Shown: in pieces, positions 23,132 through 33,466 of the stretch
Position numbering within the stretch: the stretch's first letter is position 1
How the letters are laid out: the number at the start of each line of letters is the position of its first letter
Source: Paenibacillus sp. FSL R7-0204
GTDB lineage: Bacteria; Bacillota; Bacilli; Paenibacillales; Paenibacillaceae
DNA: 64,000 nt
Assembly: GCF_038002225.1 (NCBI RefSeq)
Contig: NZ_JBBOCA010000001.1
Coordinates: 1,426,001 to 1,490,000 of the forward strand
Direction: 5' to 3'
Translations under genes and position numbers: made by a program
Notes under the pieces: model-generated
Database searches by the model: none
What the model was told of the DNA's origin: nothing
Seen by the model: the letters and a program-made list of their open reading frames with translations, nothing else

Positions 23132-24652
23132 ATGTTCAACCGGTTAACGGGCAGAAAGAAAGCTCTTGCGGGGTGCTTCATCCTGTTCTTATCGTTCATG
23201 ATGTTAAGCGCTTGCAGCGGGGGGGAGTCTGAGCGTTCCGATTCAGCGGGTGCCCCGGCACCGATCTCGATTCTGGCACCGCTGCATTTTCCGCAGACGC
23301 CTTCAGCGGAGCTGATCGCCGAGATTGAGAGACTGACCGGGACTCAGCTCGATATTACCTGGGTGCCGGAAGGCGTCTACACGGACAAAATGAATACCGC
23401 ACTGACTACCGGCTCGCTCGGCAAAGTGACGTTCGTGAAATTCACCGATTATAATCCGGTTAAGAATATGATCCGCTCCGGCGCTTTTTGGGAGATTGGT
23501 CCCTATCTGGCGGAATTTCCGAATCTCAGTCAGCTGAATGCGGCGATTCTTAAACAGACTTCGGTGGATGGGGGAATCTATGGACTTTATACAGAAAGAC
23601 CGGCCTCCCGGCAGGGCATTATTATCCGCAAGGACTGGCTGGAGAAGCTGCATCTCAGTCCGCCTAGTACGCTGGAGGAGCTGTATGAGGTGATGAAGCA
23701 GTTCACCATGAAGGACCCGGACGGCAACGGCAAGGCAGATACCCTCGGACTGGTGGACCGCAACGATCTGGTGTACGGGGTATTCAAGACGTTAAGCTCT
23801 TATTTCGGCACGCCGAATAACTGGGAAATCGAAGATGGACAGTTCATCCCGGAATTCGCCACGCCCGAGTATATGGACACGATGAACTTCATGCGCAAAT
23901 TATACAAGGAGGGGATCATTAACCAGGATTTCGCCCTGACCAGCAAGGAAGTGCAGCGGGACAAATTCATCCGGGGAACCGCCGGGATCTTCATCGGGAG
24001 TATGACGGATGTGCAGCGGCTATCCATTGAGGCCAAGGCGATCAACCCCAAGGCGGAGCTGACGCTGATTAACCGGATTAAGGGACCGGACGGATATAAG
24101 GTATGGTCTATACCCAAGTACAACGGCTTGTACCTCTTTTCACGTAAAGCCATTGCTACCGAGCAGGAGCTGAAGCAGGTGCTCGGATTCTTCGACCGCA
24201 CGATGGATGAGGATGTAGCCAACCTGATGGCTTACGGCTTCGAGGGCCGCCACTATAAGCTGGACGGGGAAGGCAAAGTAATTCTTCCGGAAGAAACGTC
24301 CCAGCTGCGGGTGTATGAGGTCAATCCGCTCAATTCCCTGATGATCGCCGATGTAGGCAATACCCATATCAAGGAGGTCGCGCAAAAGGAGCAGCTCACC
24401 GCCCTGGCCGACCAGCTCAGCCGGGATAACGAGCAGTTTCTCGTCGATGACCCCACCGTGTCACTCACCTCGCCGACCTATGACGAGAAGAACGCCGAGC
24501 TGTCCGCGATCATCGTGGATGCCACCTACAATTATATTCTCGGCAACATCGACGCCGCCGGCTTCGCCGGGGAGGTGGAGAAATGGAAGACCAGCGGCGG
24601 CAGCCTGATTATTCAGGAGTACGGGGAGGCGGCGAGGGGGTTGGAGGAGTGA
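23132..24652 (+). CDS. Extracellular sugar-binding lipoprotein (LplA-like), no adjacent permeases
   Basis: 506 residues with a signal peptide ending in FMMLSACSGG. It is clearly paralogous to the protein encoded at 31904-33466: both have FWEIGP-LxEFPNL, RQGII-RKDW, DPDGNGK-DT-GVVDRN-LVYG-FKT and FGTPNNW motifs in register. The divergent AraC-type gene is its likely regulator. Unlike the other binding-protein genes here, no permease follows; the next base composition is AT-rich island DNA, so the original operon has probably been interrupted just after this gene. Confidence 0.9.
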   Translation: MFNRLTGRKKALAGCFILFLSFMMLSACSGGESERSDSAGAPAPISILAPLHFPQTPSAELIAEIERLTGTQLDITWVPEGVYTDKMNTALTTGSLGKVTFVKFTDYNPVKNMIRSGAFWEIGPYLAEFPNLSQLNAAILKQTSVDGGIYGLYTERPASRQGIIIRKDWLEKLHLSPPSTLEELYEVMKQFTMKDPDGNGKADTLGLVDRNDLVYGVFKTLSSYFGTPNNWEIEDGQFIPEFATPEYMDTMNFMRKLYKEGIINQDFALTSKEVQRDKFIRGTAGIFIGSMTDVQRLSIEAKAINPKAELTLINRIKGPDGYKVWSIPKYNGLYLFSRKAIATEQELKQVLGFFDRTMDEDVANLMAYGFEGRHYKLDGEGKVILPEETSQLRVYEVNPLNSLMIADVGNTHIKEVAQKEQLTALADQLSRDNEQFLVDDPTVSLTSPTYDEKNAELSAIIVDATYNYILGNIDAAGFAGEVEKWKTSGGSLIIQEYGEAARGLEE

Positions 24653-26213: not shown

Positions 26214-27611
26214 TTGCAGGCAACGACTACGATGTTATCGGAACTGGAGGAGTATTTGCGGCAGAAGGGATTATCGATCACGGAATTCGCCAAGCGTTCT
26301 CAGCTTCATTCGGGGACACTCAGCAATATTCTTCGCGGACACCGGCCTATTGCGATGCAGCAGCTAGATCGGATTACCGAGGCCATGGGACAGGAGAAAG
26401 GATACTTCTATGACTTGTATATCGATGATTATATTATCCGTGGTTCCTCAGACTGGAGAAGGATTGGACCGCTATTGCTCCGCTGTGCTGACCTGAACAG
26501 ATTGGGCAGTATTCAGCGCCTGGCCCGCCATATTATGGACAATCTGATGTACGCTCCATTGTTGTTTGATAGTGCGGAAGAACTCTTCAAAGCCCGGAAA
26601 AAGGAAGCTGCTGCTGCTATCTACGAGATTGTTGCTGAAGCCGAACGCTACCAGCATTCAGAACGTTTGGCGCTATGCCAATTCAGGCTGTTTATTATTT
26701 CGCTCAGCGATGACCAGAACCGGAACCTGTGGGCTGCGAACCGGTTTGAGCCTTTTGTGGAACGGCTCGATGAAGTCGATCAACTGGATGCACTCAAAGA
26801 GCTTGCCAATACATACCGGTCTTTACAGCGCTGGGACAAGGTCGATGAATGTGCAGCCAAGATGGGGCATAAGGCTAGAATACAGTATGACCTGAAGGTC
26901 CAGCACGAACACAGAGCATCAGAACCCGTGAAGCTCCCCGGCAGACCGCTGTTCTTTTACATTGCATACAGTGATTTGTTGCGGGGGAATGTTTGTGATG
27001 AGCTTGGGGATTATGAGGGAGCTTTGGGTTACATAAGCCGTTATTCTGATTTGGGCTGGGTGAGAGAGCAGGAAGATGAGGTCGAGCGTTGGAAGAGTCT
27101 GTTTATGGAATGGTCCGAGGCTAATACTTGTCTAGCAAGGCTTTGGAGCGGGGAAAACGAAATTATTGAACGATATAAAATTTATATAGAGAAGCATAAA
27201 GAAGAACAGGTAACGGGGCTTCTAAATGTTGTTAGGGTAGCTAATAAGTATCAATTAAATGTTGATGATATACTAAATTATTTCAATCAAGAAATTCAAG
27301 AAGATATCAGTGAACTAATAGCGGGGAGATATAACCGGAAGTTGGCACTTGATCGTCGGGCTACATTAATGTATGAACTTGCATTTTACCATTTGCATAA
27401 AGGCGATTATCCTAAAGGTTTTGATTTGTTGTTAAAAACAATAGAAAATTTCCAGCAGATAAACAATGAGAAGTATATACTGGAAAGTGTAACTCTGTTT
27501 GAAAGGTTTAGAAATATTGCCAGTCAAGAGATAAGGGAGCAATATCAAACTTTACTTTTGGGAGGGAATTCTCATGAAGAAAAAGGCAGTTATACTTCTT
27601 ACGGTTCTTAG
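26214..27611 (+). CDS. XRE helix-turn-helix regulator with TPR-like sensor domain (RRNPP/AloR-like)
   Basis: 465 residues from TTG 26214, which has AGGGAGGGTGG upstream (ATG 26232 is in frame). N-terminal XRE domain: LSITEFAKRSQLHSGTLSNILRGHRPIAMQQLDRIT (about 20-55). The remaining 400 residues are entirely helical with repeated about 35-40-residue blocks of aromatic/Ala-rich pairs (for example YEGALGYISRYSDL and ELAFYHLHKGDYPKGFDLLLKTIENFQ), the pattern of TPR-like peptide receptors. A secreted-peptide gene overlaps its 3' end. Composition changes inside the gene: balanced GC up to about 27120, AT-rich after. It probably binds the re-imported peptide and controls nearby promoters. Confidence 0.82.
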   Translation: MQATTTMLSELEEYLRQKGLSITEFAKRSQLHSGTLSNILRGHRPIAMQQLDRITEAMGQEKGYFYDLYIDDYIIRGSSDWRRIGPLLLRCADLNRLGSIQRLARHIMDNLMYAPLLFDSAEELFKARKKEAAAAIYEIVAEAERYQHSERLALCQFRLFIISLSDDQNRNLWAANRFEPFVERLDEVDQLDALKELANTYRSLQRWDKVDECAAKMGHKARIQYDLKVQHEHRASEPVKLPGRPLFFYIAYSDLLRGNVCDELGDYEGALGYISRYSDLGWVREQEDEVERWKSLFMEWSEANTCLARLWSGENEIIERYKIYIEKHKEEQVTGLLNVVRVANKYQLNVDDILNYFNQEIQEDISELIAGRYNRKLALDRRATLMYELAFYHLHKGDYPKGFDLLLKTIENFQQINNEKYILESVTLFERFRNIASQEIREQYQTLLLGGNSHEEKGSYTSYGS

Positions 27612-27693
27612 TATTATTTTTGTTCCGATTGTGACAGTGCCAAGCATACCAATTTCGTCTGGCATAACTTTATATACCCATGGTGACGGTTAG
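27574..27693 (+). CDS. Secreted signalling propeptide, 39 residues (Phr/AloP-like)
   Basis: ATG 27574 follows GGGAGGG at 27560-27566. The frame gives MKKK, a hydrophobic core (AVILLTVLSIIFVPIVTV), then PSIPISSGIT and the C-terminus LYTHGDG before TAG. This is the layout of exported pheromone precursors of RRNPP systems: positive N-terminus, short signal sequence, mature peptide at the very end. It overlaps the regulator gene by 38 bases in another frame, which is the usual coupling of receptor and peptide genes. The mature peptide is predicted to be the last 5-10 residues. Too short for usual gene callers. Identity is inferred from position and architecture. Confidence 0.75.
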   Translation: MKKKAVILLTVLSIIFVPIVTVPSIPISSGITLYTHGDG

Positions 27694-27748
27694 CTGATTA
27701 ATCCCTCCAACCCTTAGAACAGTATCATCCTATAAGCTCAACCTAAAG

Positions 27749-27783
27749 TCCTGCTACAGCTTCTTGTGGTGGGATTTTTCAGT
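27749..27783 (+). terminator. Possible terminator after peptide gene
   Basis: TCCTGCTACA and TGTGGTGGGA can pair with several G-T wobbles, followed by TTTTT. Weak, but suitably placed about 55 bases after the propeptide stop. Confidence 0.4.
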
Positions 27784-31903: not shown

Positions 31904-33466
31904 ATGACGAAAAAATCCTTCACCCTGCTCCTAAGCACGCTGCTGACCCTCAGCATGTTGTCCGCTTGCGGCGGTAACAACAACAAAGAGGCGGCAGCTA
32001 CGAAAGACCCGGGCGCCAACACCGGGACCAACACCACCGCAACCACGGACCCAGCCACTGCTGAGCCGGAGAAGCCGACTGAGATCAAAATCATGCTCCC
32101 GCTGAACACGACAGATACTCCACCGGATACGATCAAGACGGAAGTGGAGAAGTTGACGAATACGAAGCTGACCTACCAGTTCTTCCCAGCCGATACGTAT
32201 GAAGAGAAGCTGAACTCCTCGTTCGCCACAGGCTCCCTGCCGCAGGTGACGTATCTGAAGAATCAGACCACTTTCCTGCAGATGAAGGAAGCGATCAAGG
32301 ACGGGCAGTTCTGGGAGATCGGGCCGCTGCTCAGCGAATTCCCGAACCTGAACAAGCTGAAGCCGGAGATCCTGAATAATACGAAGGTAGACGGCAAGCT
32401 GTATACCCTGTATATCGGCCGTCCGCTGGCGCGCCAGGGCATCATCTACCGCAAGGACTGGGCGGATAAGCTGGGACTGAAAGCGCCGGCCAACACGGAG
32501 GAATTGTTCGCGATGGCTAAGGCTTTTACCGAGCAGGACCCGGACGGCAACGGGAAGAAGGATACCATCGGTGTTGTTGACCGCAACGAGCTGGTGTATG
32601 GTGCGTTCAAAACCGTCTCCTCCTGGTTCGGCACGCCGAACAACTGGGCTGAGAAGGACGGCCAGCTTGCGCCGGAGTTCACTTTTCCGCAATACATCGA
32701 CACGATGGATTTCTTCAAAAAGCTGCGTGAAGGCGGTTATATGAACCAGGACTTCGCGGCAACCAGTAAGACGGATGCGGTCAATATGTTCACCAGCGGC
32801 AAGGCCGGGCTGTATATCGGCGGCTCGATGCAGGACATCGATTCCCTGAACAAGGACTTGATCAAGAACGTGCCGGATGCCGTACTGGATACACATAGCA
32901 TGGTGGCTGGACCTGACGGCAAATTCGCCCAGTGGATGATTCCCGGCTATAACAACGTAGTGCTGTTCCCGAAATCGGCAGTCAAGGATGAGGCGGAACT
33001 GAAGAAGATTCTGAAGTTCTTCGACGCGATGATGACCCCTGAGGTAGCCAATCTGATGTACTGGGGTATTGAAGGCACACACTACACCGTCGTGGACGGC
33101 AAGGCCAAAGCGACCGACAATAAAGAGCTGATCGAACGTGAGGTCAAAGGCTTCAAGGACAGCGTCATCGGCGAATATGAAACGAACGGCATGTACCAGA
33201 GCTTGAACGTGCTGCCGGGCCGGATTCATGCAGAGGAGCTGGTACTGGAGAATGTGAAGTACGGGGTCGCAGATCCTACGGCGGCGCTCGACTCGGCAAC
33301 CTATACGTCCAAGGGCGTAGAGCTGCAGCAGATTATTGCGGATGCGACTTACAAGTACATGTATGGTCAGCTCGATAAGGCCGGCTTCGAGAAGGAAGTC
33401 GAGAACTGGAAGAGCCGGGGCGGGGCGAAGATTATTGAAGAATACAATGCCGCGTACAAAAAATAA
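31904..33466 (+). CDS. Extracellular sugar-binding lipoprotein (LplA-like) with cognate permeases
   Basis: 520 residues; signal peptide ends in LTLSMLSACGGN, then a Thr/Ala/Pro-rich linker (about 25-55) and the binding domain. It shares register-matched motifs with the orphan paralog at 23132-24652 (FWEIGPLLSEFPNL, RQGIIYRKDW, EQDPDGNGKKDT, FGTPNNW). ATG 31904 has CGGAGG upstream. A terminator-like hairpin separates it from the permeases, which would give more binding protein than channel. Context with GH105 and GH28 points to oligogalacturonide or rhamnogalacturonan fragments as ligand (inference). Confidence 0.92.
   Translation: MTKKSFTLLLSTLLTLSMLSACGGNNNKEAAATKDPGANTGTNTTATTDPATAEPEKPTEIKIMLPLNTTDTPPDTIKTEVEKLTNTKLTYQFFPADTYEEKLNSSFATGSLPQVTYLKNQTTFLQMKEAIKDGQFWEIGPLLSEFPNLNKLKPEILNNTKVDGKLYTLYIGRPLARQGIIYRKDWADKLGLKAPANTEELFAMAKAFTEQDPDGNGKKDTIGVVDRNELVYGAFKTVSSWFGTPNNWAEKDGQLAPEFTFPQYIDTMDFFKKLREGGYMNQDFAATSKTDAVNMFTSGKAGLYIGGSMQDIDSLNKDLIKNVPDAVLDTHSMVAGPDGKFAQWMIPGYNNVVLFPKSAVKDEAELKKILKFFDAMMTPEVANLMYWGIEGTHYTVVDGKAKATDNKELIEREVKGFKDSVIGEYETNGMYQSLNVLPGRIHAEELVLENVKYGVADPTAALDSATYTSKGVELQQIIADATYKYMYGQLDKAGFEKEVENWKSRGGAKIIEEYNAAYKK

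Follow-up and report, generated by a model that had tools for sequence, protein, structure and literature searches.

A 64,000-nucleotide stretch of the Paenibacillus sp. FSL R7-0204 genome (the window) carries aloR, a gene for a receptor-regulator, and aloP, a 39-codon propeptide gene that overlaps the aloR 3′ end. Judged by sequence, the pair is a member of the published Alo family with its own signal, and we estimate a probability of about 0.9, by analogy, that it is a quorum-sensing pair working as Alo13 does. aloP is conserved as a protein, and the C-terminus of its product diverges in step with one segment of the receptor. In its likely history, the lineage of the window gained a pocket block and, with it, a signal that both differ from those of its close relatives.

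Receptor and overlapping propeptide gene

An earlier note, made from the DNA letters alone, had described an XRE helix-turn-helix (HTH) gene with a helical repeat C-domain, and our analysis agrees. aloR starts with TTG and encodes 465 residues, of which residues 11-59 match Pfam HTH_3 at E 6.8e-7, better than its cut-off; tetratricopeptide repeat (TPR) models match weakly, under the Pfam cut-off. The AlphaFold2 model (mean predicted local distance difference test score 86.4) contains helices and no strands, arranged as a helical repeat. In a fold search, this model aligned to TPR proteins, with unrelated TPR proteins scoring level with RRNPP receptors. A profile search of the PDB matched 11 sequences, mainly HTH domains, and none of these 11 was an NprR, PlcR, Rap, or AimR receptor. 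The position upstream of the aloR start is purine-rich in most orthologs.

The overlap of 38 bases (27574-27611), the separate GGGAGGG site, the 39 residues, the opening MKKK with its hydrophobic core, and the C-terminus LYTHGDG were all found as the note had described them. aloP starts with ATG, and its product, MKKKAVILLTVLSIIFVPIVTVPSIPISSGITLYTHGDG, has a best 12-residue Kyte-Doolittle mean of 3.23; searches of Pfam, NCBIfam, and PHROGs that allowed E up to 1 matched it to nothing. We compared 17 loci with a close receptor relative (E <= 1e-150) among 100 genomes of the genus, our own included. At 12 of these 17, a 39-codon open reading frame (ORF) starts 35 nt ahead of the receptor stop codon, as in the window; one of the 12 (L035; G, L, and P numbers are our labels) has a TTG start in place of ATG. 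The 12 ortholog peptides have endings of the NHGEG kind, namely FNHGEG in eight and YNHGEG, FNHGDG, FNHGFG, and YYHGEG in one each. Across aloP codons 14-39, which lie outside the overlap, the mean proportion of synonymous differences (pS) was 0.65 and that of non-synonymous differences (pN) was 0.31 among 13 sequences, with pS exceeding pN in all 78 pairs. The two other frames of the same stretch had no pS excess (pS/pN 0.38/0.40 and 0.30/0.42). The aloP ORF is a real gene under purifying selection, and the concern raised in the note, that the small frame might not be conserved as protein, is not borne out.

Membership in the Alo family

Alo systems were described in Paenibacillaceae by Voichek et al. 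2020 (PMC7425212), whose main text reports an HTH-TPR receptor followed by a secreted propeptide of 32-50 residues, 1,050 AloR hits in 149 bacteria, and many paralogs per genome. According to the same text, the AloP13 propeptide yields SHGRGG, a peptide that shuts off the AloR-driven expression of a neighboring gene that AloR activates; Alo13 is the only system whose transcriptional effect was tested there. The published AloP13 fragment was found in full (23 of 23 residues) in genome G202, and the receptor directly upstream is AloR13. A six-frame search aligned residues 3-461 of our AloR to the AloR13 locus at 30% identity and E 4.0e-67 (an E-value for one genome), which bears out the comparison with AloR families that the note had proposed. 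Most other full-length AloR copies in G202 are 41-48% identical to ours, and two are at 34-36%. In a protein search that scored the best 8000 candidates by shared words, proteins named P. polymyxa matched AloR at 46-48% among the matches listed.

The published receptor cut-off is E < 1e-10 by MMseqs2 and at least 250 residues, and the search rule included short ORFs of 30-50 residues that overlap the aloR 3′ end or follow it immediately (PMC7425212, main text). With 465 residues, E 4.0e-67, and an N-terminal HTH_3 domain, AloR falls within these bounds, and its helical repeat model, aligned to TPR proteins, provides the C-terminal TPR-like domain despite the sub-cut-off Pfam matches. AloP likewise fits, given its 39 residues, its 38-base overlap, and its N-terminal hydrophobic stretch by Kyte-Doolittle.

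The layout is common in the wider family. We collected 167 distinct AloR receptors by similarity to the window AloR, including 100 further stretches from a longer, itself capped listing, such that they are not a random family sample. A peptide accompanies 120 of them. In 106 of these 120 pairs, the distance from the aloP start to the stop codon of aloR is 35 nt, giving the 38-base overlap, and HG lies within the last seven residues in 102. Where several starts fitted, our script took the one nearest the 35-nt offset, and the rule leaves uncounted any peptide separated from its receptor by more than 25 bases, for example those of L017 and L018. The remaining 47 receptors have no peptide by this rule, one of them being a fragment of another. 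Our own genome encodes 10 full-length AloR proteins, by the same rule seven with aloP and three without (L006, L007, and L008). The likeness to AloR-AloP systems that the note had drawn therefore holds, given the AloR13 homology, the shared architecture, and the usual overlap. Its wording of an undescribed member was too strong for the kind of system, already published as the Alo family; for the individual pair, our search of the Paenibacillus AloR/AloP literature, supplementary tables aside, turned up no description. PMC7425212 may list this receptor or a sister in its supplementary tables, and so may the large scan reported in PMC10075063.

Co-divergence of a receptor segment and the signal

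The earlier placement of the signal near YTHGDG is supported by the way receptor and peptide diverge together. Among 327 AloR pairs at least 78% identical in residues 1-255, the more identity dropped at residues 268-385, the fewer of the six final AloP residues were shared (rho -0.615). No within-group shuffle in 1000 was as strong (shuffle mean -0.235). The relationship persisted among disjoint pairs (n = 44, rho -0.71, p 5.6e-8) and within bands of N-part identity (rho -0.52, -0.29, and -0.65). None of the 17 pairs with a drop of at least 0.30 share all six AloP residues; where the drop was below 0.05, 42 of 101 pairs share all six and 46 share five. Because divergence of this segment tracks the AloP C-terminus, the receptor pocket appears matched to the hexapeptide. 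Partial correlations for successive residue spans, controlling for the remainder of the receptor, peaked at residues 276-390 (0.31-0.41), with 0.32 also at 226-265, and were 0.09-0.14 at residues 401-452, nearer to aloP, and negative over most of 1-190. This co-divergence supports a C-terminal signal read by the AloR segment at about 268-390.

A divergent receptor block beside a changed signal

The window AloR is 94-96% identical to its three nearest orthologs over residues 1-262 and only 50-53% identical over 263-375. Against the nearest, G085, identity is 82% overall, and 96%, 53%, and 79% over residues 1-262, 263-375, and 376-465; G085 is at least 93% identical to G084 and G083 in all three parts. 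The signals differ as well, with YTHGDG in the window vs. YNHGEG or FNHGEG in these three orthologs. A block scan against L020 placed the divergence at residues 274-386, with nucleotide divergence of 0.42 inside and 0.09 outside and none of 200 shuffles as strong. The same edges were obtained against each of the three close orthologs (0.42-0.43 inside, 0.09-0.11 outside; again none of 200 shuffles). Within the block, pN against L020 was 0.25-0.33, vs. 0.01-0.03 ahead of it, and pS was 0.79-0.86, vs. 0.13-0.41 at residues 1-262, 0.64 at 376-420, and 0.34 at 421-453. Since silent sites also jump within the block, it looks exchanged. Of the 15 residues at which the window departs from the residue common to ten aloP-bearing orthologs, nine lie at 300-349.

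The change in aloP is similarly confined. Against G085, G084, and G083, identity is 85-87% over codons 1-18, 59-63% over codons 19-39, and 93-97% over the next 80 nt. Because the DNA between and around them is better conserved, the aloR block and the signal end of aloP are two separate differing stretches. A second case is the pair G091-G092 (signals FNHGFG and YYHGEG), with a block at 256-464. Left edges are similar (residue 256-274) in G091-G092 and in the comparison of L020 with the peptide-less L027. Across the 16 pairs scanned, those whose signals matched or almost matched had weaker blocks, some beyond or near the shuffles and none within 274-386 (L021-L022, 247-272; L023-L024, 394-452; L030-L032, 6-43; L020-L022, 157-269; L020-L026, 225-244). 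Taken together, we lean toward a reading in which, in Alo systems, AloR residues ~265-390 and the last six aloP codons form an exchangeable specificity unit, such that lineages would switch communication group at a fixed site by gaining a divergent pocket block with a matching signal and would keep the DNA-binding half, leader, and flanks. If so, the window locus and G091-G092 would be two examples of an exchanged specificity unit, and the same data would predict the receptor region that reads the peptide.

Alternative explanations

A chance reading frame across the aloR end and the spacer is one alternative to a gene, as the ORF is short and matches nothing in the three family databases. Chance would not account for the recurrence of offset and length at 12 of 17 loci, the excess of pS over pN that all 78 pairs show beyond the overlap, or the identical offset in the family at large (106 of 120 pairs), and we rejected this explanation as extremely improbable. 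Instead of a signal, aloP could encode a toxin-like peptide or a small hydrophobic membrane protein, given that its N-terminal core is strongly hydrophobic and that secretion is predicted only. We regard this as very unlikely, since its last six residues vary in step with the AloR segment, relatives with this layout are secreted, and the AloP13 hexapeptide acts on transcription (PMC7425212, main text). Physical linkage or shared ancestry alone might produce co-divergence, because aloP adjoins the receptor 3′ end, and this seems improbable to us, if less so than a non-signal peptide. The association is weak at residues 401-452, which lie closest to aloP, and strongest at 276-390, and simple linkage is thus not readily the cause; disjoint pairs retain the correlation, and the leader half of aloP and the 80 nt behind it remain alike where codons 19-39 do not.

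The alternative to which we give the most weight, and still consider unlikely, is that rapid positive selection in place, and not exchange of a segment, produced the block at 274-386. The rise in pN within the block would fit selection of this kind, yet pS rises with it, and the left edge recurs near the same residue in G091-G092 and in L020 vs. L027. Moreover, P0004, a more distant protein, is nearer the window within the block (0.73, vs. 0.50 for G085) and not ahead of it (0.76, vs. 0.78 for G085). Several observations weigh against our interpretation. No donor of the window-type block was found in a protein search with residues 262-385 (nine proteins) or among 394 genomes of the family; the best matches were P0001 and P0002 (94-98%), P0004 (75%), and a frame-broken receptor locus in G053 (65%) whose tail is of the peptide-less type. 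pS is still elevated right behind the block, the within-group shuffles retain a negative mean rho, and five of the 17 orthologous loci (G086, G050, G041, G043, and G074) have no aloP-like ORF between 260 bases before the stop and the end of the ~1.5 kb locus. The note had named homologous regulators without the small gene as evidence against a pair, and this applies in part: 12 of 17 loci have aloP, and the five that do not all have an altered, shortened receptor C-terminus.

Proposed mechanism and significance

The AloR13 homology, architecture, codon-level selection, and co-divergence support the receptor-propeptide pair that the note had proposed. By analogy with Alo13 and other RRNPP systems, AloP would be made as a 39-residue propeptide, exported via its hydrophobic N-terminus, and trimmed outside the cell to approximately its six C-terminal residues, about YTHGDG. 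The trimmed peptide would then re-enter the cell through an oligopeptide permease, the uptake route of other RRNPP systems, and bind AloR at residues ~270-390, altering transcription control by the HTH domain. Self-regulation or the neighboring transport genes are candidate targets by position alone.

With an intact aloP, a fixed site, and a changed signal beside close relatives that carry another, this locus offers a clean pair for studying how communication groups change and separate, and the co-divergence map points to the AloR segment for peptide specificity. Paenibacillus carries many Alo systems. The main text of PMC7425212 does not mention a coupled change of pocket and signal (no occurrences of pherotype, coevol, or specificity), which suggests that the coupled change of receptor block and signal is a new aspect of this locus.

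Genomic context and variant loci

The coordinates of the pair and other features are given in Table 1. aloR lies between two solute-binding-protein genes that are ~45% alike. A gene like the downstream one is present in 16 of 17 loci, the 17th (G091) being at a contig end, and its product is 88-99% identical in the 16, far above the conservation of aloR. In 14 of 17, the 8 kb upstream contain relatives of the other solute-binding protein and of an AraC-type regulator. Content between the flanking genes varies, and the two solute-binding-protein genes are the only steady neighbors; since they recur across loci, the receptor occupies one chromosomal site. Behind aloP, a stem-loop with a T-run (-18.2 kcal/mol, z -2.75, equaled by 3 of 200 shuffles) is a likely terminator that a terminator consensus scan did not pick up. 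Consensus scans for promoters and terminators gave hits at about the shuffle level (5 vs. a mean of 4.5, and 2 vs. a mean of 1.4).

Table 1. Positions of the aloR-aloP pair and associated features (window coordinates unless a contig is named)
Feature	Position	Strand	Basis
aloR, XRE/HTH receptor-regulator with helical repeats (stop codon included)	26214..27611	+	ORF, profile, homology, AlphaFold2 model
aloR HTH domain, residues 11-59	26244..26390	+	Pfam HTH_3
Likely ribosome-binding site of aloR, GGGAGGG 5′ of its TTG codon	26197..26203	+	sequence
AloR block, residues 274-386, putative peptide-reading segment	27033..27371	+	block scan, pS/pN jump, co-divergence
GGGAGGG, aloP ribosome-binding site	27560..27566	+	GGAGG or GGGAGG-like site likewise in aloP-bearing orthologs
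aloP, 39-codon propeptide gene overlapping aloR	27574..27693	+	ORF, conservation, codon selection
Codons of the C-terminal hexapeptide YTHGDG, putative mature signal	27673..27690	+	analogy with AloP13 SHGRGG; maturation predicted
Stem-loop and T-run, likely terminator behind aloP	27745..27778	+	folding; sequence kept in close orthologs
Solute-binding-protein gene, upstream	23132-24652
Solute-binding-protein gene, downstream	31904-33466
HTH-less AloR-like proteins L011, L012, L013	G000:C1, about 3795679-3796524, 3174970-3175509, 6894949-6895788

The five peptide-less receptors (L027, L029, L031, L034, and L036) end at ~436-439 residues, and their alternative tails (ILKQS, IFKHS, or ILRDRNN) resemble one another; the absence of aloP thus goes together with a shortened receptor end. 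The peptide-less receptor of G050 also has an in-frame stop. Four of the five form one clade (99/99), and because that of G074 is placed elsewhere, with weaker support (87/97), aloP may have been lost twice. We also considered peptide-less receptors as chimeras with a second tandem aloR like those in G091 and G092; over columns 400-440, they are 0.33-0.38 identical to the second receptors vs. 0.27-0.30 to aloP-bearing ones, a signal too weak for such a claim.

Three loci (L026, L028, and L032) contain an intact second aloP downstream, with signals YTHGEG (G094), FTHGDG (G081), and YTHGDG (G048), and in two more (L025 and L030, from G008 and G030), a second copy appears degenerate. A tandem second aloP with a different signal is possibly a source of new signals, and duplicated or tandem propeptides are known in other peptide quorum-sensing systems (PMC11343458, in part). 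An aloR-aloP pair followed nearby by a second aloR with no detected peptide occurs twice in our own genome (L002/L006 and L005/L008) and in G091 and G092 (second receptors L050 and L049). In the published set, Alo13 adjoins Alo14, whose peptide is degenerate (PMC7425212, main text).

Our own genome also encodes three AloR-like proteins (L011, L012, and L013; 282, 180, and 280 residues) that have no HTH match in Pfam and align to the C-terminal half of AloR only. Each has a small overlapping propeptide ORF with an HG-form end (NSHGMGH, FGHGVDY, and INNHGAGH, respectively). For the 280-residue protein, a propeptide-like ORF was present at 23 of 30 loci fetched (relatives L119-L148), and ten loci, our own genome included, are 89-100% identical. 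Every Alo receptor contains an HTH domain according to the main text of PMC7425212; these HTH-less proteins might form a receptor class of their own or act as peptide sinks.

Comparison with known systems

Relative to NprR-NprX, PlcR-PapR, Rap-Phr, and AimR-AimP (RRNPP/RRNPPA), structure scores do not set the AloR fold apart from unrelated TPR proteins. Unlike Alo systems, the window locus has no spo0E-like gene among the neighbors scanned (nine genes and seven small ORFs, a part of the small ORFs nearby). The pair nevertheless resembles Alo systems in its HTH and TPR-like receptor, overlapping aloP, hydrophobic N-terminus, and HG-type C-terminal hexapeptide, and differs from the described Alo13 in its own signal, YTHGDG, and its own site between two solute-binding-protein genes. 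Signal groups are known from ComQXPA, the pneumococcal competence-stimulating peptide, and ComRS, and receptor-signal coevolution is known in ComRS, as far as the sources consulted in part describe them.
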